Assembly: GCA_023247075.1 (NCBI GenBank)
Contig: JAHFHD010000004.1
Coordinates: forward strand, 1-39,822
Source: Candidatus Omnitrophota bacterium
GTDB taxonomy: Bacteria > Omnitrophota > Omnitrophia > Omnitrophales > Danuiimicrobiaceae
DNA: 39,822 nt
Direction: 5' to 3'
Made by a program: the position numbers and the translations under genes. The first letter of the stretch is position 1. Each line of letters starts with the position of its first letter. The notes under the pieces were generated by a model. The model did no database searches. It was not told where the DNA came from and saw only the letters and a program-made list of their open reading frames with translations. Below are positions 7,672 through 39,822 of this stretch, in pieces.

Positions 7672-7814
7672 AGTTTTGAGCGAAGCGAAGGATCTAAGTT
7701 CGCTAGATTCTTCCGCCAAACTAATGGCGGACAAGTCGGCTCCGCCTCATCCGCCAGAGGACGGATTCGTCCTTTTGGCGAAGAATGACACACTGAATGA
7801 AGTGGGATGCGCAC
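7672..7814. repeat. Dispersed palindromic element, 'GTCATTCT' family, reverse orientation
   Basis: Read on the minus strand it begins TGTGTCATTCTTCGCC and contains AGAATCTAGCGAACTTAGA and GATCCTTCGCTTCGCTCA, like the copy at 18203-18267. The outer flank (7791-7814) also matches the flank of that copy (GTGCATCCCACTTCAT). It holds extra nested hairpins. The remaining 7630-7671 is palindromic debris without coding potential. Confidence 0.75.
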
Positions 7815-18174: not shown

Positions 18175-18267
18175 GTGCGAGTGCATCCCACTTCATCCAG
18201 TGTGTCATTCTGAGGCGAAGCCGAAGAATCTAGCGAACTTAGATCCTTCGCTTCACTCAGGATGACA
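18175..18267. repeat. Dispersed palindromic element, 'GTCATTCTGAG' family
   Basis: The core 18203-18267 begins TGTCATTCTGAGG and ends CAGGATGACA, with internal AGAATCTAGCGA / AGATCCTTCG palindromes. Its left flank (GTGCATCCCACTTCATCCAG) is shared with the inverted copy at 7672-7814. Confidence 0.85.
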
Positions 18268-18324: not shown

Positions 18325-18523
18325 TACTGGCGCACATAATCGTAGGCAACTTTGGACGTTGCCTACGATTAGTGCTGGTGCATTGGCACCTGCATCAGGC
18401 GCCGGCACATCATCGTAGACGGACATCAAGTCCGTCACAATGAGTACTGGCGCATTAGCGCCGGCACATCATCGTAGACGGACATCAAGTCCGTCACAAT
18501 GAGTACTGGCGCATTAGCGCCGG
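18325..18523. repeat. Tandem array of hairpin-rich 59-bp units upstream of cysH
   Basis: Units starting GCCGGCACATCATCG at 18401 and 18460 (period 59) are almost identical, and a third begins at 18519. Each carries hairpin GACGGAC/GTCCGTC and hairpin GGCGC-ATTA-GCGCC. A diverged unit to the left has 18339-18350 pairing with 18358-18369 (12 bp) and GGTGC-ATTG-GCACC at 18377-18390, where both arms have changed together. No coding potential is seen in 18134-18548. The array ends 26 bp before cysH, so it could form part of its leader. Confidence 0.8.
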
Positions 18524-26560: not shown

Positions 26561-26626
26561 TGTCATTCCCGCGAAAGCGGGAATCCACTAATCCTGGATC
26601 CCCGCTTAAAGAGTGCGGGGATGACA
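26561..26626. repeat. Dispersed palindromic element, 'GTCATTCCCG' family
   Basis: TGTCATTCCC at the left and GGGGATGACA at the right, enclosing CCCGC-GAAA-GCGGG and CCCCGC/GCGGGG hairpins. It lies in the 279-bp divergent gap between the GldA-like gene and the sulfur carrier gene. Confidence 0.85.
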
Positions 26627-28003: not shown

Positions 28004-28017
28004 GTGCCTAGTTGTTG

Positions 28018-28135
28018 TCATTACGAAGCGGCATTCCATGCAATGCTGACTTGTCCGCCAGTAGTTTGGTGGAAGCAATCCAAAATTTAAATTGCTTCGT
28101 CCCCGCCAGAAAATCTGGCGAGTCCTCGCAATGAC
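28018..28135. repeat. Dispersed palindromic element, 'GTCATTACGA / CGCAATGAC' family
   Basis: GTCATTACGAAGC at the left and CCTCGCAATGAC at the right form terminal inverted repeats. Inside are GAAGCAATC/GATTGCTTC-like arms and the CCGCCAG-AAAAT-CTGGCG hairpin. The right end contains the ATG used by the ketoacyl synthase. Same family as the in-frame insertion at 32219. Confidence 0.85.
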
Positions 28136-30526: not shown

Positions 30527-30634
30527 AGCCAGCATTCAAGGCGAAGGCCGAAGGATCTAGAGTTCGGAGTAAACTCCACGAAAAATCGAACAAATGCTAG
30601 ATCCTTCGCTGTCCCTAAGGCGCTCAGGATGACA
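30516..30634. repeat. Dispersed palindromic element overlapping the end of bioF
   Basis: CTGTCATCCTGAAG at the left and CGCTCAGGATGACA at the right are terminal inverted repeats, with CTAGATCCTTCG-type internal palindromes. It supplies the bioF stop codon. Confidence 0.85.
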
Positions 30635-30688
30635 AGTGATTAGCTTAAGATAGTGTTTGTTTAGCGTTTTGAAGCACTTCACAAACTA

Positions 30689-30829
30689 TGTCATTCTGAA
30701 GGAGCCCCGTAAATTTATTCTGCGGGGCGAACTGAAGAATCTGGCGAATCTAGATCCTTCACGGAGTTTACCCTGAGCGCCAGATCCTTCACTTCGTTCA
30801 GGATGACAAACGAAGGGCTCAGGATGACA
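30689..30829. repeat. Composite dispersed palindromic element
   Basis: It begins TGTCATTCTGAAGG and ends with two successive CAGGATGACA ends (to 30808 and 30829), as if two elements were nested or one end was duplicated. Internal CCCCG-TAAATTTATTCTG-CGGGG and repeated AGATCCTTCAC stretches are visible. Apart from the two elements, 30527-30993 holds nothing recognisable except an AT-rich stretch before the next gene. Confidence 0.8.
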
Positions 30830-30993
30830 AGCCTGTTATGAACTTCAATGGGCTAAACAGTTACTTAAGATAAGGCGAAAAATAACCCTCGTCAGACCTT
30901 TGCCCGCTTGCTGAAAAGAAACAGATTGCGTCATTTTATTAAAAATAGTAAACTTTCTAAACTTCTTAAGAAAGAGAACTATAAAAACTAAAT

Positions 30994-33900
30994 ATGCAAG
31001 GACGTTTTTTAAAGTCTGTTTCACTCATCACCGCTGCTGTATTTTCCATCACCCAATTTTCATTTCCTGAACGTTTAAACGCTTCGGTCATTCCTTCTCC
31101 CGCATTTAATTTTGAACAGGCATCTTCGCGAGTTAGCGCTGCCGCACCTTTTCGACTCTCCATTCCCAAAGAACTTGCTGCAATTAACAACATTCATTCT
31201 GGAGTTGGGCCAAAGTTAATTCATATTCAAACTTCACACATGAGTTTTGAGGCCCAGAAAAAAATCAAAAGCATTTTGAAACACCTTGAGAAAGAAGAGG
31301 GAATCAAAACACTTTTTTTAGAAGGCACTGCTTTTAAGCTAGACCCATCACTCCTTCGCTTTTTCCCAACCCGCCCGGATTTAAACGAAAAAGCGCTTGA
31401 GCAACTCTCCCAAAAATCCTTAGTTGATGGAGCAGAACTTTTTCTTGCTGATTCTCAAAACGCAAGTGCGTACGGCATTGAAGACGCAGAAGTTTACAAA
31501 AAAGGCACCGAAATTTTTCGCGACGTTTTGCGCGCGCGCCGCGGGTCAGAGCAATTCCTTAAAGATTTTGACCAGCAAATTTCCCGCATTGCAAGCACCC
31601 GGCTAAATCCAAAGCTAAGGGATTTTTTAAAAGAGTGCAGCCGCTACACGAGCGGCACAAATAGCCCGAGCAGCCAGATTTCATTTTTAAAACAGCGCGC
31701 ACTAGAAACGCTTGAGCTTGAGTTTACCAATCCGGTGAATCAAGTTGATTGGCCCATGCTCGTGCGGCTTACAAAATTAGAAAAATGGGAAAAGGAAATT
31801 AATCAAGCCGCACTCAAAAAAGAAAAAGATTTGTTTCTTGCGGTAGTCTCAAAAAAACTTACCCCATCTCTTGCGGCTTTAATTGAAGAATTGCTTTCCT
31901 CGCCGCTTGTGTCTTCAACCAGGTCAAGCGACGGCTTCGACCTAATTTTTGAAGAGATGGCGGACAAGCTGCCTCGAGATTTTAATTACGCAGCTTACCC
32001 AAATCTAAATCGTGCCATTGGTTTTCGCCTGTTAAATAGCGAAATCGACCCCTCTTTGCTCATGAAGGAAGTCGAACAGCTGAGTCAAAAAATCGCAGAG
32101 TCACTGGCGCAAAGCCAAACCGAGAAAAAAATCCTCGACGTGCTTAACAAACATCGTTTGCTTCGAAAACTATTTGCACTTGAGCTCGGCCCAGATGATT
32201 ACGAAGAAATTCAACAGCTGTCATTGCGAGAAGCCCCGAATGGGGCGACGAAGCAATCTCAGTTCTGGATTGCTTCGTCAACACTTGGAACGCTTCCTCG
32301 CAATGACGAAACGTCAAAGCGCTTACGGGCATATTTTCAACCATCTCAGCTAATTCAAGAATTGCTCGCACTTTGCGTGTCCGAACATGTAAGCGTTGCT
32401 GCATTTGACAGTCATCTAGGAGAAATCGACCAGTTGTTTCGCCGAGCACTTGATTTTTACGCGGTGGTCAAAGAGCGTGACCAGTGCATGATTCGAAATG
32501 TGGAACGCCGATTTAAAGAAACGGGTGTGGATAAAGCAGTGGTAATTACCGGCGGTTTTCACTCACGACCGTTTCAGGAATATTTTTCAAAACACGGTTA
32601 TCGCTACGCGCTTCTTTCGCCTAATTTTACTTCTGGTTCAAAAGAAGATTCTGAAGAGGGCAAAGCGGGTTACATCCGATTCATTCTTGAAACTGACCCG
32701 CGGAAGCTCGAAACTCAAACCCACGCAGCCACTCCAATTGCGCAGGACGAAGTTAATTTCGCGCCGCTTGGTTATGATTTCAAAATTACCGCAACACTTG
32801 TCCGGGATGAGTTGAGAGCCACCTTCGGGACAACGCCTTCATCAGCCTTTAACCCAAAGGTTGCTGCCCATTGGGGGATTCAACTTCCCGCTTCCGTTAT
32901 TGATAAAGGAATTGCTCCTCGCCAGGAAGTGCGCTCCTCAGCGCATAGCTCAAAAGCGCCGGAGCCCGCTCGTCAACACCGCCAAGGGATACGCGGTTTT
33001 TACAATGAAGAAATTAGCTTTGTGGAACTTATGTTGATTACCGCTTTATTGTCCTTTCTGTCTTTAGGTTTTTTCCCATTTTTTGTTGCGCACGGCATTC
33101 AACAAAAGAATAGATTTTTAGTTATCGTAGCTGGTATCCCAAGCGCTTTAGCAGCAGTTGGATTTTTGGGAGCGCTTGCCTATTTTCTCAACTGGAGTAT
33201 CCAACGACGCTTGAAAAAGAGCAACACCACAATTGCCGGCGAAGTTCCTAGAAAAGAACTTCGCGCGAGCAAAAACCCACTGTCTTTAGGAAAGTATTTA
33301 GCAGGAACGGCGTTTAGATTAGCAGCTTCCTTCGCGCTTGCGGGAACGCTTTTTGTAACATCCGTTTTTGCTCAATCAGATTCTCAAGGACAAACCGGCC
33401 GCCCAACAACTAATTCAACTGCGCTGGTTCGACAAAGAAAATCGGACGGCGGATCGACGATTGAAATTTTTAGCCCAGACGGAGCAAAAATAAAGCTCAC
33501 AAAACTTGTTGCTCAGTCCATGAAAACGCCAGGCGGCGATTGGTCGCTAATTTATTCCGAGCCCGGCAGCCGTTTTCTTAGCGGCCGCGCTCAAGCGCGT
33601 GATTTAGAGACAAAGGAGTCGGGATGGGTTACAAGGTTTCAAGCGGAGCTGCCCGAGTTTGATTTGATATTTACCTTTACGAGTCAAAAGCCCGACCAAT
33701 TTGAAGTTACAGTTACTGGCATGAACGGCAGCCAAATTAACCCCCGTCCTGAACTGCGGAGTAAATTATCCTCATCACGCCCCAAAATCCATCCCAAACA
33801 ACCTCCTTGGAGGTTTGTTAGGAGGCTTAAGGAGATCGCCGCCAGTAAAACTGTCTCCACGAAAGGCAGCGTTCCTCCTGCACGGGTTTTTACGGGGCGA

Positions 33901-36900
33901 AGAAATTTATCGAAAACGAAGCAAGCGCCTCAACCGGCGGTTTTCCACCCGAGAAAAAAATGGGCATCTACCGTATCAGCCAAAAGACAGTTGGACAGAA
34001 ACAGAGAAAGAGAAGGGCCTGCAAAAACATATCAACAAAAGGGCCTGGGCGCGAAGGGTGGAAGCACAGGGAACGGTCACACACGACAACTCAGCGGACG
34101 CATGGGGCGGCTAAGGGCTTTTGTGGTTCAGTTTGGTTTTGGATTTCTTATGTGGTCGGCTGATTTGGTTGCTCAGGACGCACCTCAACAAGGCCAGAAC
34201 TTTTTGCGTTCGTCTGGAGAGGTTATCAATCCAAACGCAGCTACCTACGCGCACGCTGAACTGCGAAGCAGCGAAAGGCTGGTTCAATTAATTGATTCCC
34301 GAAGCGCATGGGAAGACGTTGACAGTTTTGTAAAACAATTTGAGCGTCAAGCTAAAAAGCGCATTGCGGCAAATTTAATGAGCACAAGCGGTCCATTACT
34401 TAACGAGTTTTTTGAGGGACTTGATTTTACCCATGACTGGATTCATTTCTCTAGTTCTCACAAAAATCGGCTAATCATTTTGAAATTTGGAAAAGTGGGA
34501 ACAACTAAAACAGGAGCGAGCGTTTACACAATAGAACTGGATTTCAAAAATCAAAAATCGTACGTTGCGAAAAACTCGCTGGATAATCTTTTATTTAAGC
34601 CGCTTCCCATCGAACTCAATCAATTACGCGCAATCGAATTTGATTTTAAGCGCGGCATAATCCATTTCAAATTCACTTCACCGCCCAATCTTGAATCTTT
34701 AAAAAGCGCACTCGGGCCAGATTTATTTGAGCGAGTCAAGTTTGAGATGTTTGAAGAAGTGACACACGGCAAAGTTTCTGTGCCGCAGGATTTTCAAACG
34801 TACGCTTCGCTTTTGCAAAATGAACGTCGCCACAGCGCGCGCGACTTTGCAGACTATGTGAATGCCATGTTAATTAAGTATCCAGACGGCAGAACCACTG
34901 GCGCCGACCAAAAGTTTGATGATGAAGTGACGGCTCTTCATCCAGAAATCGCAACACTTTGGTTTATGGTTTCAATCGCTAGCAAGGTGGTTGAAAATCC
35001 AGCCGCTCCACCGAACAGTTATTTTGGAAGCTTTGAGCAAGCTTATTTGCGGCGTTTCGACAAATACAAAATGTTTGAAGCAACAAGAAAACAAATACAC
35101 ACAATCCAAGTTTCCCGAAAAAGTAGAGAATTCCCCAAACTTGTTTTTCCTACTCTAAATATCTCGCTCCCATTGACTCAAACGGACACACTTCAATTTG
35201 AATTGGAAGCTGGCAATCGTCAAGAGCTTCGGAGCAATTTATTTCAATTCAGCAGAAGGGGAATTATCTTTGCATCTTTAATGGGTTTTATTGCTGTAAG
35301 CGAGCTTCTTACACCTGCAGTCGCTAGCGATGAAAGTTTGCCAGTTACTGATGAGCAAACAGTGAGCACTCAAAGCGAAAGCCCCGCTCCTTTAACAGAC
35401 CTGTATCCGTTGGTTCAAGCGCCATCTGATTTGGCACAGGCCATCCCGTATCTTGAAAAGAAACTGACTGAGTTTGAAATCGAAGGGGGCGGCGGTCTGC
35501 TCCGCTCCTATTATGTTGATGATCGAGACAAACAGTTTCTCGAATTTAAAAATATCACCTGCATTTATGATCAAGCTATTGCGATCGTCGCGATGACCGC
35601 TTTAGGCCGGCAGGAAACAGCAGAGCGTTGGATGCGGGCATTAATTCGATCTGCACATCCTGACGGGCAATTTCCATTTTTTGTTCGCTACGACAAGAAT
35701 GAGTCAGATCCCTACTACAGGACAGGCTCCCAAATGTGGGCAGCATATGCGATGGGATTTTTCTTACAAAAATTTCCAGAAAGTTCGCTAACTCCTCACA
35801 TTAAAGCGGCACTCAAAAAGCACTTGGATGCCATGATTAAAAACTATTGGCTTGAAGGAAGTGAACAAGGCACTCAGGAAGATACTTTCACCGGAGGCAA
35901 AGGCCAGTACCCAAATTACCCAAAAACGGAAGGTTTCGATCCAAAACCTAAGCAGTGGAGCAGCACGAAGCAGAATATCGATGCTTATTTTACTTTGGAG
36001 CTAGCCGGCAGGGTTTTGGGCGACTCAAAATATACCGCCATCGCTCAGCGCGTCAAAAAGGCTCTCCTCAATCGACTCTGGAACAATGAAAGCAATGAAG
36101 CGTATCAAGGGGTTACGGGCCCTGCCGGTCAAGATAAAAATCACGCTCTGGATGTCGGTTCCTGGTACAGCATCTTTGCTTCTTTGGTTGGTGAACACGA
36201 TCGCGCGAAGCTGGCTTTAAAAAGCACGGATCAGTATCTGGTTGTTGAAGAAGGCGTCCGTGGATACACACCTTATCTAAAGGAAAGAGGATATCCTGAA
36301 GCGGCGGGCGGAATTTGGGGCGAGGGAACAGCAGGCGTCCTCCTCGCAAAAAGATTGGCGCCGCGACCTGCAGAGACAGAAGTTGTAGATGATGTTGAGA
36401 ATTTATTAAAGCTGATGACAGACCATGGCCTTTTGGATCACACCCAAAATGTCGAGATTGATGATTTAAAACGTTTGCCTTCTGCGGTCTCGACAGCCTG
36501 GACTTTAATCGCTCTCCATCCGAATGGGTTTTGGAACACGGATGTGCCTCCGCTAGGTGCAAAACCCGTGGAAGCACCTGCCAGAGAAATTCGTAAGGAA
36601 CTTCGAAGCAATCCATTTCAATTCAGCAGAAGGGGAATTGTCTTTGCATCTTTAATGGGTTTTATTGCTGTAAGCGAGCTTCTTACACCTGCAGTCGCTA
36701 GCGATGAAAATTTACCAGCCGCTGATGAGCAAACAGTGAGCGCTCAAAGCGAAAGCCCCGCTCCTTTATTTGACATACCGTTGGCTGGATTTGATTCTCA
36801 AATAGGCAGGGTTGTTAATAAAAAGCTTACAGTGACGAAGGGTAGCGACGGCAAAATAACGGCTAGGATTGTTGAAGACTTTGAATTGTCAGAAACTCCA

Positions 36901-39822
36901 AAACGTGAAGCGGCCCCCGCCATATCTACTTCTCCCCAAAAAATTGTTTTGACCGGACAAACTCAGGATGAAAAAAAAGTGTCTTTCATTGGCTCGAAAG
37001 GCGAGAAAAATAACTACGCTGGAATTGTCATTTTTGAAACACAGGTTACTTCCGAGTTTTTTGACGCCCCCCTGCTTCTTAAAGAGATGTACACAGTATC
37101 AAGCGACCAGGCTTCTGAAAAGAATAGTGAATGGTATGACAATAATAAAGTCTTGGTTCAAAAAATTAATTCAGACGGTTCCATCGAACTCTTCAGTCCC
37201 AAGAAAAGTTTGACGGTGCATATTTCAAAAGAAGATGCCAACGGCCGCCAAAGTTTAACCATCCACACCCCTTCTGCTCAAGGTAATGTTGAGGGAAAAG
37301 CATGGACTGAAAAATCCTCAGGACTTGTGGAAGGTGTTAATGGAAATAGCTTCAATAACCCCGGGTGGAGCCTCTTCGTTAAAAGGCTCGAAGATGGGTC
37401 GCTCAAGGTTTTTCTTACGAACCTGTATCCATTGGTTCAAGCGCCATCTGATTTGGCGCAGGCCATCTCGGATCTTGAAGCGAAACTGATTGATTTTGAA
37501 ATCGAAGGAGGAGGCGGCCTCCTTCGTTCTTATTACGTCAATGACCGAGACGAGCAATATTTGTGGGTTAAAGACATCACCTACATTTATGATCAAGCGG
37601 CTGCAATAGTTGCGATGACTGCTTTAGGCCGGCAAGAAATAGCAGAACGTTGGATGCAGGCGCTGATTCGGTCTGCACATCCTGACGGGCAATTTCCATT
37701 TTTTGTTCGCTACGACAGGGTTAAGTCAGATCCTTACTACAGGACAGGCTCCCAAATGTGGGCAGCATATGCGATGGGATTTTTCTTACAAAAATTTCCA
37801 GAAAGTTCGCTAACTCCTCACATTAAAGCGGCACTCAAAAAGAACTTGGATGTCATGATTGAAAAGTATTGGCTTGAGGGAAGTGAACAAGGCACTCAGG
37901 AAGATACTTTCATGGGAGGCAAAGGCGTTTATCCAAATTACCCAAAAACGAAAGGCTTCAATCCAAACATTAAAAAAGAGTGGAGCAGCACAGAGCATAA
38001 TATCGATGCTTATTTTGCTTTGGAGCTAGCCGGCAGGGTTTTGGGTGATTCAAGATACGCTGCCATCGCTCAGCGCGTCAAAAAGTCTCTCCTCAATCGA
38101 CTTTGGAATAATGAAAGCAATGAAGCGTATCAAGGAACTAGCCATGAAGGTCCAGATAAAGATCATGCTCTGGACGTCGCTTCTTGGTACAGCCTTTTTG
38201 CTTCTTCGGTCGGGGAACACGACCGCGCGAAGCTGGCTTTAAAAAGTGCGGATCAATATCTGGTTGTTGAAGAAGGCATCCGTGGATACCCACCCTATCT
38301 AAGGGAAAAAGGATATTCTAAAGCGACGGGCGGAGTTTGGGGCGAGGGAACAGCAGGCGTCCTCCTCGCAAAAAGATTGGCGCTGCGACCTGCAGAGACA
38401 GAAGTTGTAGATGATGTTGAGAATTTATTAAAGCTGATGACAAACCATGGCCTTTTGTATCACACCCAAAACGCGGCTTATGATTCAAAACATTTGCCTT
38501 CTGTGGTCTCGACAGCCTGGACCTTAATCGCTATCCATCCGAATGGGTTTTGGAATACGGATGTGCCCATGTTAGGCGCAAAACCCGCGGAAGCACCTGC
38601 CAGAGAAATTCGTAAGGAACTTCGGAACAATCCGTTTAAATCCAGCAGAAAAAGAATTGTTTCCGCATCTTTAGCAGGTCTTATTGCTGTGGGCGAGTTT
38701 TTTACACCCGCACCCGTTTCACAAGCCTCTAGCGATGGAAGTTTACCAGCTACTGATGAGCAAACAGTGAGCGCTCAAAACAAAAGTCCCGCTCCTTTAT
38801 TTGAAATGCCGTTCGGCGCTGAGCTTGACTCTCAAACAGGCAAAGTTATTAATGGAAAGCTTATGGTGACGAAAAATGGCGGCGGCAAAATAACGGCTAG
38901 GATTTTTGGCGGCCCCGTTTCCGAGACACTCATTAAAGAATTTGAATTGTCAGGAATTCCAGAACGCGAAGACACTCCCACTACTCCTAACTCCCCAAGA
39001 AAGATTGTTTTGACCGGACAAACTCTGGATGGAAAGAAAGTGTCTTTCATTGGCTTGAAAGGCAAGAAAAATAGCTACGCCGGCGTTTTCATCGTTGAAA
39101 CCGAAGTCACTTCCGAGTTTTTTGACGCCCCCGTACGTCTTAAAAAGATGTACACAGTATCAGGGGGCAAGGTTTCTGAAAAGGGCAGTGAATGGTATGA
39201 CAAAAATAAAACCTTAATTCAAAAGACTAATCCAGACGGTTCCATTGAATTATTCGATTCCAAGAAAAGTTTGACGGTGCATATTTCAAAAGAAGATGCC
39301 AACGGCCGCCGGAGTGTAACCACCCTCTTTTCAGGTGAAATCCCTTCTGCTCAAGGCTATGTTGAGGGAAAAGCATGGACTGAAGAATCCTCAGGGCTTG
39401 TGGAAGGTGTTAGTGGAAATAGCTTCAACAACCCTGGGTGGCGCCTCGTCGTTAAAAGACTCGAAAATGGGTTGCTGTTTGTGTTACGGAAGTATGTGAA
39501 TACTGACGAAAGCGGCGCTCCAGACCCCCGCTCGTTGTTACCGCCTCTTCCGGCGCAAGATAAGCAAACACCTAATACTGACGAACGGCGTGAGTTGCGC
39601 AGCAGTTCCAAAATAAATTTTTCAAACGCAATACCGGACAGCCATCAGGCCGCAGAATTCCAAACCGTTTCTTTGGGGGGCAAAAATTTAATTATTGGTC
39701 CCAACGGAGCTATGACAAAAATAAAATTAGGAGAATCTTTTGACGATGCCATTGCACGTTACCTTGAAGAAAGACAGCCCGAAAGCGATTCCCTTTCCGC
39801 GCAATATGCCCGCACCGGCGGC
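30994..39822 (+). CDS. Giant modular secreted protein with repeated RxELR motifs, partial (runs off the window)
   Basis: One frame without a stop from ATG 30994 to the last base, 2943 codons and continuing; I read every codon. An in-frame TAA at 30982 fixes the start. Order by residue: signal peptide 1-30; Tiki/ChaN-like module to about 600 (HIQTSH 77-82, LEG 109-111, GIED 161-164, GGFH 520-523); two membrane helices about 676-700 and 708-734; a beta module about 800-915; a basic low-complexity stretch 920-1040; an unassigned module 1090-1400; helical-toroid module 1470-1866; beta module 1925-2143; second toroid 2144-2539; second beta module 2602-2835; start of another. [R/H]xE[L/V]R[S/A/N] occurs at 604, 643, 753, 918, 1087, 1409, 1867, 2540 and 2865. 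Hydrophobic segments with A-x-A/S-like ends follow 753, 1409, 1867 and 2540. Likely exported; function unknown. Not assignable to one named family. Confidence 0.85.
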   Translation, partial: MQGRFLKSVSLITAAVFSITQFSFPERLNASVIPSPAFNFEQASSRVSAAAPFRLSIPKELAAINNIHSGVGPKLIHIQTSHMSFEAQKKIKSILKHLEKEEGIKTLFLEGTAFKLDPSLLRFFPTRPDLNEKALEQLSQKSLVDGAELFLADSQNASAYGIEDAEVYKKGTEIFRDVLRARRGSEQFLKDFDQQISRIASTRLNPKLRDFLKECSRYTSGTNSPSSQISFLKQRALETLELEFTNPVNQVDWPMLVRLTKLEKWEKEINQAALKKEKDLFLAVVSKKLTPSLAALIEELLSSPLVSSTRSSDGFDLIFEEMADKLPRDFNYAAYPNLNRAIGFRLLNSEIDPSLLMKEVEQLSQKIAESLAQSQTEKKILDVLNKHRLLRKLFALELGPDDYEEIQQLSLREAPNGATKQSQFWIASSTLGTLPRNDETSKRLRAYFQPSQLIQELLALCVSEHVSVAAFDSHLGEIDQLFRRALDFYAVVKERDQCMIRNVERRFKETGVDKAVVITGGFHSRPFQEYFSKHGYRYALLSPNFTSGSKEDSEEGKAGYIRFILETDPRKLETQTHAATPIAQDEVNFAPLGYDFKITATLVRDELRATFGTTPSSAFNPKVAAHWGIQLPASVIDKGIAPRQEVRSSAHSSKAPEPARQHRQGIRGFYNEEISFVELMLITALLSFLSLGFFPFFVAHGIQQKNRFLVIVAGIPSALAAVGFLGALAYFLNWSIQRRLKKSNTTIAGEVPRKELRASKNPLSLGKYLAGTAFRLAASFALAGTLFVTSVFAQSDSQGQTGRPTTNSTALVRQRKSDGGSTIEIFSPDGAKIKLTKLVAQSMKTPGGDWSLIYSEPGSRFLSGRAQARDLETKESGWVTRFQAELPEFDLIFTFTSQKPDQFEVTVTGMNGSQINPRPELRSKLSSSRPKIHPKQPPWRFVRRLKEIAASKTVSTKGSVPPARVFTGRRNLSKTKQAPQPAVFHPRKKWASTVSAKRQLDRNREREGPAKTYQQKGLGAKGGSTGNGHTRQLSGRMGRLRAFVVQFGFGFLMWSADLVAQDAPQQGQNFLRSSGEVINPNAATYAHAELRSSERLVQLIDSRSAWEDVDSFVKQFERQAKKRIAANLMSTSGPLLNEFFEGLDFTHDWIHFSSSHKNRLIILKFGKVGTTKTGASVYTIELDFKNQKSYVAKNSLDNLLFKPLPIELNQLRAIEFDFKRGIIHFKFTSPPNLESLKSALGPDLFERVKFEMFEEVTHGKVSVPQDFQTYASLLQNERRHSARDFADYVNAMLIKYPDGRTTGADQKFDDEVTALHPEIATLWFMVSIASKVVENPAAPPNSYFGSFEQAYLRRFDKYKMFEATRKQIHTIQVSRKSREFPKLVFPTLNISLPLTQTDTLQFELEAGNRQELRSNLFQFSRRGIIFASLMGFIAVSELLTPAVASDESLPVTDEQTVSTQSESPAPLTDLYPLVQAPSDLAQAIPYLEKKLTEFEIEGGGGLLRSYYVDDRDKQFLEFKNITCIYDQAIAIVAMTALGRQETAERWMRALIRSAHPDGQFPFFVRYDKNESDPYYRTGSQMWAAYAMGFFLQKFPESSLTPHIKAALKKHLDAMIKNYWLEGSEQGTQEDTFTGGKGQYPNYPKTEGFDPKPKQWSSTKQNIDAYFTLELAGRVLGDSKYTAIAQRVKKALLNRLWNNESNEAYQGVTGPAGQDKNHALDVGSWYSIFASLVGEHDRAKLALKSTDQYLVVEEGVRGYTPYLKERGYPEAAGGIWGEGTAGVLLAKRLAPRPAETEVVDDVENLLKLMTDHGLLDHTQNVEIDDLKRLPSAVSTAWTLIALHPNGFWNTDVPPLGAKPVEAPAREIRKELRSNPFQFSRRGIVFASLMGFIAVSELLTPAVASDENLPAADEQTVSAQSESPAPLFDIPLAGFDSQIGRVVNKKLTVTKGSDGKITARIVEDFELSETPKREAAPAISTSPQKIVLTGQTQDEKKVSFIGSKGEKNNYAGIVIFETQVTSEFFDAPLLLKEMYTVSSDQASEKNSEWYDNNKVLVQKINSDGSIELFSPKKSLTVHISKEDANGRQSLTIHTPSAQGNVEGKAWTEKSSGLVEGVNGNSFNNPGWSLFVKRLEDGSLKVFLTNLYPLVQAPSDLAQAISDLEAKLIDFEIEGGGGLLRSYYVNDRDEQYLWVKDITYIYDQAAAIVAMTALGRQEIAERWMQALIRSAHPDGQFPFFVRYDRVKSDPYYRTGSQMWAAYAMGFFLQKFPESSLTPHIKAALKKNLDVMIEKYWLEGSEQGTQEDTFMGGKGVYPNYPKTKGFNPNIKKEWSSTEHNIDAYFALELAGRVLGDSRYAAIAQRVKKSLLNRLWNNESNEAYQGTSHEGPDKDHALDVASWYSLFASSVGEHDRAKLALKSADQYLVVEEGIRGYPPYLREKGYSKATGGVWGEGTAGVLLAKRLALRPAETEVVDDVENLLKLMTNHGLLYHTQNAAYDSKHLPSVVSTAWTLIAIHPNGFWNTDVPMLGAKPAEAPAREIRKELRNNPFKSSRKRIVSASLAGLIAVGEFFTPAPVSQASSDGSLPATDEQTVSAQNKSPAPLFEMPFGAELDSQTGKVINGKLMVTKNGGGKITARIFGGPVSETLIKEFELSGIPEREDTPTTPNSPRKIVLTGQTLDGKKVSFIGLKGKKNSYAGVFIVETEVTSEFFDAPVRLKKMYTVSGGKVSEKGSEWYDKNKTLIQKTNPDGSIELFDSKKSLTVHISKEDANGRRSVTTLFSGEIPSAQGYVEGKAWTEESSGLVEGVSGNSFNNPGWRLVVKRLENGLLFVLRKYVNTDESGAPDPRSLLPPLPAQDKQTPNTDERRELRSSSKINFSNAIPDSHQAAEFQTVSLGGKNLIIGPNGAMTKIKLGESFDDAIARYLEERQPESDSLSAQYARTGG
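31183..32640 (+). other. Tiki/ChaN/TraB-like module of the giant protein (residues about 64-549)
   Basis: HIQTSH, AQKKIKSILKHL, LFLEGT, GAELF, YGIED and the late GGFH (GX2H form) are in the order seen in the Tiki superfamily (ChaN, TraB, EreA-type), where His and Glu bind metal or heme. The middle is long, helical and interrupted by the palindromic insertion. A metallohydrolase or cofactor-binding role is possible; the assignment is by motif only. Confidence 0.45.
32219..32307. repeat. Palindromic element inserted in frame in the giant ORF
   Basis: TGTCATTGCGAGAAGC at the left and CCTCGCAATGAC at the right, with GAAGCAATCTC/TGGATTGCTTC arms, are the same family as the element at 28018-28135. 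It is translated as about 30 residues (409-438) of the Tiki/ChaN-like module without breaking the frame, like Rickettsia palindromic elements. Confidence 0.85.
33673..34260 (+). other. Basic low-complexity linker with signal-like segment (residues about 894-1089)
   Basis: Between RPELRSK (918) and HAELRSS (1087), residues 920-1035 are crowded with Lys, Arg, Gln, Ser and Pro and lack fold-like patterning. They end in GRMGRLRAFVVQFGFGF and SADLVAQD, a basic plus hydrophobic segment resembling a signal peptide. Another frame stays open from 33815 to 34114, so an old pair of compensating frameshifts is possible. Confidence 0.5.
35218..36591 (+). repeat. Module unit A: RQELR linker plus helical-toroid domain, no beta domain
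   Basis: The linker 35218-35400 is near-identical in DNA to 36592-36765. The toroid domain 35401-36591 (397 codons) matches 37423-38610 (396 codons) with long identical stretches. Patterns such as CIYDQAIAIVAMTALG, HPDGQFPFFVRYD, QNIDAYFTLELAGRVLG, HALDVGSWYS and GGIWGEGTAGVLLAKRLA repeat about every 50-60 residues, as in (alpha/alpha)6 barrels of glycoside hydrolases. No catalytic pair can be named. Confidence 0.8.
36592..38610 (+). repeat. Module unit B: RKELR linker, beta domain and helical-toroid domain
   Basis: The linker (36592-36765) is followed by a beta-rich domain (36766-37422) with KIVLTGQTQDEKKVSFIG, SDGSIELFSPKKSLTVHI and WTEKSSGLVEGVNGNSFN, then the second toroid copy (37423-38610). 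The DNA similarity to units A and C implies recent tandem duplication. Confidence 0.8.
38611..39585 (+). repeat. Module unit C: RKELR linker and second beta domain
   Basis: The linker (38611-38796) is more diverged, with SSRKRIVSASLAGLIAVG as its basic-hydrophobic part. The beta domain (38797 to about 39495) repeats the unit B beta domain almost residue for residue, with a short insertion (FGGPVSETLIK). No toroid copy follows. The next RRELRSS is at 39586-39606 and a new module starts before the window ends. Confidence 0.8.

Follow-up and report, generated by a model that had tools for sequence, protein, structure and literature searches.

A dispersed palindromic element, probably translated, within genes of an Omnitrophota bacterium

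Introduction

Translated palindromes are known best from Rickettsia. The Rickettsia palindromic elements (RPEs; Ogata et al., 2000, 2002, as described in PMC10969869 and PMC3733652) are about 150 bp long, and two elements of Rickettsia conorii, RPE-4 (CGTC-4) and RPE-6 (CGTC-1), were placed, together with dRS3, among the CGTC-tagged REPs (Di Nocera et al., 2013; PMC3733652). Intragenic copies of CGTC-REPs encode 20-30 residues, and REPs are often transcribed and have been suggested to function as RNA elements (PMC3733652). Omnitrophota, a phylum without cultured members (PMC10066038), is not among the five phyla listed for CGTC-REPs (PMC3733652). In the literature, no paper was found that links the sequence described here to palindromic elements or that deals with such repeats in Omnitrophota. 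Here, a palindromic element is analysed that lies in a 39,822-nt stretch of DNA from an Omnitrophota bacterium (this whole stretch is referred to as the window) and recurs in the genome to which the window belongs, a single MAG of 2.28 Mb.

Results

Structure of the element

The first-pass annotation had described an 89-bp element related to an intergenic copy in the window. The palindrome is real and the kinship holds; however, the core comprises 88 nt, bounded by perfect 11-bp terminal repeats, and the 89th position is one flanking base (Table 1). In the intergenic copy, the left terminal repeat carries two mismatches. The predicted fold of the 88-nt element has an energy of -46.9 kcal/mol. 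Each half-element follows the plan YGTC-ATTGC-GAG-arm-GAAGCAAT-C, and the halves are joined around GAAGCAATC...GATTGCTTC, an arrangement that resembles a head-to-head dimer of YGTC-tagged repeats. The arms are of several types, among them GACTGGC...GCCGGGAC and TTCCAAG-containing ones, and fold better than shuffled arms (-7.0 vs. -3.9 kcal/mol).

Table 1. Coordinates of the element, its parts, its intergenic relative and its host frame (positions in the window).
Feature	Position	Strand	Remark
Palindromic element, 88-nt core	32220..32307	+	In-frame product, residues 409-438: LSLREAPNGATKQSQFWIASSTLGTLPRND
Left terminal repeat GTCATTGCGAG	32220..32230	+	T just before (YGTC tag)
Left variable arm AAGCCCCGAATGGGGCGAC	32231..32249	+	Self-folding, -10.6 kcal/mol
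Central inverted repeat GAAGCAATC/GATTGCTTC	32250..32276	.	Head-to-head junction of both half-elements
Right arm	32277..32296	-	Recurrent TTCCAAG motif in reverse complement
Right terminal repeat, CTCGCAATGAC on the + strand	32297..32307	-	G just after
Intergenic copy, same family	28017..28135	.	119-nt core
Host open frame	30994..39822	+	Runs past window end; 2943 codons shown, no stop
Predicted peptides diagnostic for insert translation			EAPNGATK, QSQFWIASSTLGTLPR

In the intergenic copy, the right terminal repeat (CGCAATGAC) contributes an ATG (28131-28133) resembling the start codon of the downstream ketoacyl-synthase ORF (MTNVVDINQIVITGIGAVTS), and a SCO1-like gene elsewhere (G000:C82) appears to begin likewise inside an element. 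The window also contains at least two other palindromic families of the form YGTC-AT...AT (30527-30830, 7677-7810, 18183-18259, 2037-2069 and 26594-26626), related loci of which are translated as VILNEVKDL... and WIPAFAGMT, and a perfect 59-bp tandem repeat (18399-18516).

The host frame and the insertion site

The host frame opens with the ATG at 30994, and the insertion falls within its N-terminal module, which spans about 515 residues. The element is covered by precisely 30 codons, 409-438 (32218-32307); they belong to one open frame without a stop, in agreement with the earlier claim of a read-through adding about 30 residues, and the translated insert is accordingly predicted to be 30 residues long. 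The first-pass annotation had proposed a comparison with homologues lacking the insertion. In an alignment with 18 homologous loci of other species, the element sequence was absent at this site from all 18. In nearly all homologues a loop of variable length follows a conserved LEL motif. This region measures 83 residues in the window protein and 53 after subtraction of the insert, which is inside the range of the homologues (26-95, median 58). One homologue (L062, from genome G041) has in this loop a repeat-like piece of another kind (...AISEIASSPEAPRND), which indicates that the site took up repeat DNA more than once.

In the AF2 model of the module (mean pLDDT 82.9), the sole long internal segment with pLDDT below 50 comprises model residues 368-400, located between two helices. 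The insert corresponds to model residues 364-393, most of it in this segment, and a few residues of the segment lie downstream. The module would thus tolerate surface insertions, as had been suggested, since the insert sits in a variable-length loop for which the model predicts disorder. The label Tiki/ChaN for the module is a plausible guess: Pfam returned nothing significant, and a fold search of the PDB gave weak matches to 5t09 and 2rad, none of them significant (best E-value 0.07). A GGFH motif near the C-terminus is almost invariant. Farther along the same giant ORF there is a 2-kb tandem duplication (35217-39476, blocks 80-93% identical), and a (K/A)ELRS motif is repeated along the giant protein (30994-39822) and its paralogues, often between modules.

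Copies in the own genome and their reading frame

BLAST of the element against its own genome gave 91 matches, many of which are the two strands or halves of one copy, with E-values of 1.1e-42 for the element itself and down to 4e-23 for other places. A half-element pattern matched 48 times and its reversed control 0 times; together with the BLAST E-values, this shows that the likeness is not due to chance. The genome holds dozens of copies. Full copies with intact or nearly intact ends, defined by at most one mismatch per terminal repeat and collected from the fetched regions and the window, number 27. Long ORFs contain 20 of them; the remaining seven are intergenic or coincide with the start of a gene, without splitting any. 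Since 74% of the copies and 84% of the sampled DNA of this genome lie in ORFs (for the DNA, ORFs of at least 200 codons), the copies are only mildly depleted in genes. In-gene copies, which the first-pass annotation had proposed to look for together with their frames, are present in other genes and are open in frame. The mobility that it had ascribed to these repeats is likewise suggested by the dispersed copies and the empty sites.

The interrupted proteins include PurL, AstD, peptidase M1 (PepN), DnaX, an HAD hydrolase, an MbnB/TglH-type protein, an epimerase and a T2SSB-like protein, as well as giant ORFs of the same family as that of the window; in ScpA, the N-terminus is extended by the element. 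PurL of relatives lacks the insert (identity downstream of the site 78-84%), and AstD aligns with PDB 3ju8 on both sides of it. The empty sites are protein-level comparisons with relatives and paralogues. The departures from a clean insertion, about +4 residues in PurL, +2 in PepN and -7 in AstD, are within normal linker variation.

In 18 of the 20 copies in ORFs, found in both orientations relative to the contig, the element is read in one common frame, xSLR...RND (p = 0.0004); the exceptions are L092 and L109, whose reading begins in phase 1. Stop codons do not account for the preference for phase 2, since the elements offer about as many stop-free openings in phase 1 as in phase 2 (37 and 36). 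The core length is 3n+1 in most retained copies of the own genome, which are stop-free in the xSLR...RND frame, and with two more bases a whole number of codons is added. However, an intact ORF already demands a net length divisible by three, which makes the length bias partly circular; it was dropped as a proof of selection, and the choice of frame and the share in genes, neither of which is circular, are taken as the main evidence.

Distribution in other genomes

Of 193 genomes of the phylum, 52 contain a two-ended pattern. In strict sets, long ORFs hold 13 of 18 copies of the own genome; the figures for three other genomes are 8/23, 7/23 and 3/23, and those for two mixed sets are 9/35 and 4/26. 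The mixed set of near relatives has a few copies in common with the single genomes. The in-ORF share is therefore 13-35% in the other sets sampled and higher in the own genome than in each of them (p 0.0002-0.02). In other genomes the frames are mixed (SLR...LAMT, VIA...LAMT and CHCE...RND), and there the net insertion length also varies, as the SLR...LAMT and VIA...LAMT forms show, which counts against an insertion of precisely fixed size. A looser pattern was matched by 115 stretches of IMG/VR, which makes the wider family a common one among environmental contigs. Phage records, plasmid records (by BLAST) and Rfam gave no match to the element. Two more similarly tagged families, ATCCTGA/ATTCTGA...AGGATCT and ATCCC...GGGATCC, are also read inside long ORFs. 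At another locus (L198, G028:C116:17000-24500), a giant protein has a linker of repeated element pieces, LLAMTKEQNAGLSSSLSLRGSEQ...LAMTKEQNAGLSSSLSL, which suggests that elements and tandem duplication may build linkers.

Flanking sequences and candidate transposases

The copies are preceded by YY and followed by RR, that is, the flanks are complementary and are not direct repeats. As for a target duplication, the adjoining base is shared in 0 of 27 copies, and none of the offsets stands out clearly. Two genes for Y1 transposases were found in the own genome, neither directly flanked by an element. Across the 193 genomes of the phylum, the Y1 family is present in 44 of the 52 that bear the element and in 110 of the 141 that do not (p = 0.42), and Y1 and element copy numbers are uncorrelated (rho 0.09). 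Y1/RAYT as the mobiliser is thus unsupported, and no mobilising enzyme was found in the own genome or in the 193-genome comparison, in which Y1 was tested.

Discussion

Very probably, the element is a translated, non-autonomous mobile palindrome that is mobilised in trans and kept in linkers and surface loops. The direct observations behind this reading are the dispersed copies, the empty sites in relatives and paralogues, the open frame, the frame preference and the low-confidence loop of the model. It is proposed that the palindrome consists of two head-to-head half-elements, each YGTC-ATTGC-(hairpin arm)-GCAAT-CY, and that an enzyme acting in trans would copy it about the genome, leaving no detectable target duplication. 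Ribosomes would then read through the copy and produce a loop of about 29-43 residues that is polar and flexible; that this peptide exists we infer from the open frames and the frame preference. Selection would retain insertions in linkers and surface loops, such as the site between two helices in the window module, PurL and the DnaX linker, where the host proteins presumably still work.

It could be argued that the segment has long been a regular constituent of the domain and resembles the repeat by chance or convergence, as the length of the site varies in all homologues and some of their loops are equally long. This is highly improbable: matching DNA recurs at dozens of further genomic sites, both within unrelated genes and in intergenic regions, the sequence is absent from the homologues at this site, and L062 has a different repeat-like piece of its own there. 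A hairpin as stable as the predicted one might in principle also be bypassed by the ribosome or cut out of the RNA, in which case the element would be in the gene and no loop in the protein. There is little likelihood of this, because a skipped or excised segment needs no open frame, yet all 20 copies in ORFs are stop-free and 18 share a frame; the absence of stops is partly due to the way in which the copies were found, but the shared frame is not.

The short length and the terminal inverted repeats are also those of a classical MITE that is moved by a DDE transposase and duplicates its target. With flanks that are complementary (YY...RR) rather than directly repeated, and no adjoining base shared among the 27 copies, such an origin seems unlikely. 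Somewhat less unlikely, though still improbable, is that the element is kept for a role of its RNA or DNA (pausing, mRNA protection or protein binding), translation being a side effect. The frequent transcription of REPs, their proposed action as RNA elements (PMC3733652) and the better folding of the arms compared with shuffles speak for such a role; the distribution of the copies, however, nearly follows gene content and does not favour gene ends, and Rfam contains no match.

If the element is indeed a translated mobile palindrome, it may, as a tentative suggestion, be adapted to life in genes, with copies of whole codons, one benign frame and a spread almost equal through coding and non-coding DNA, and may, together with the two further YGTC-tagged families, supply the disordered linkers of the giant proteins of these bacteria. 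The copies provide some 20 natural insertion experiments in proteins of well-known fold and a testable route from mobile DNA to new segments of proteins, especially of giant multidomain ones.

Comparison with known systems

REPINs with RAYT are likewise inverted pairs of hairpin-forming repeats, and two Y1 genes are present in the own genome; the element differs in having no GTAG tag and no position directly flanking these genes. The plan is that of CGTC-tagged REPs: a YGTC tag at the outer end, where CGTC-REPs have CGTC (or TGTC/CCTC) (the base at -1 is C or T in 26/27 own copies and 114/129 others), a stem opening with complementary AT (ATTGC...GCAAT in each half), head-to-head dimers (27/27 full copies, in a search that required both ends), intragenic copies and no dedicated flanking transposase. 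However, CGTC-REPs have an 8-9-bp stem with a 4-5-base loop, whereas here a 5-bp ATTGC/GCAAT stem closes an arm of 14-53 bases, usually self-folding. The unpaired tail, CCA in CGTC-REPs, is mostly CT or CC here, and the A is not constant. Because the stem and loop sizes differ, the element is not filed as a member of the CGTC-REPs.

Like RPEs, it is a palindrome in frame within unrelated genes, essential ones included: the 20 copies lie in intact ORFs of different families. The parallel with Rickettsia drawn by the first-pass annotation fits the published scheme, in which RPE-4 and RPE-6 stand among the CGTC-tagged repeats (PMC3733652), and it is a likeness of plan and description. The differences are the phylum, the length, which is shorter here than the about 150 bp of RPEs, and, unlike RPEs, one preferred frame in nearly all coding copies. 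What is new here is a variant of such palindromes, probably translated, of which most full copies in one genome are intragenic, share a reading frame and are inserted in core enzymes.
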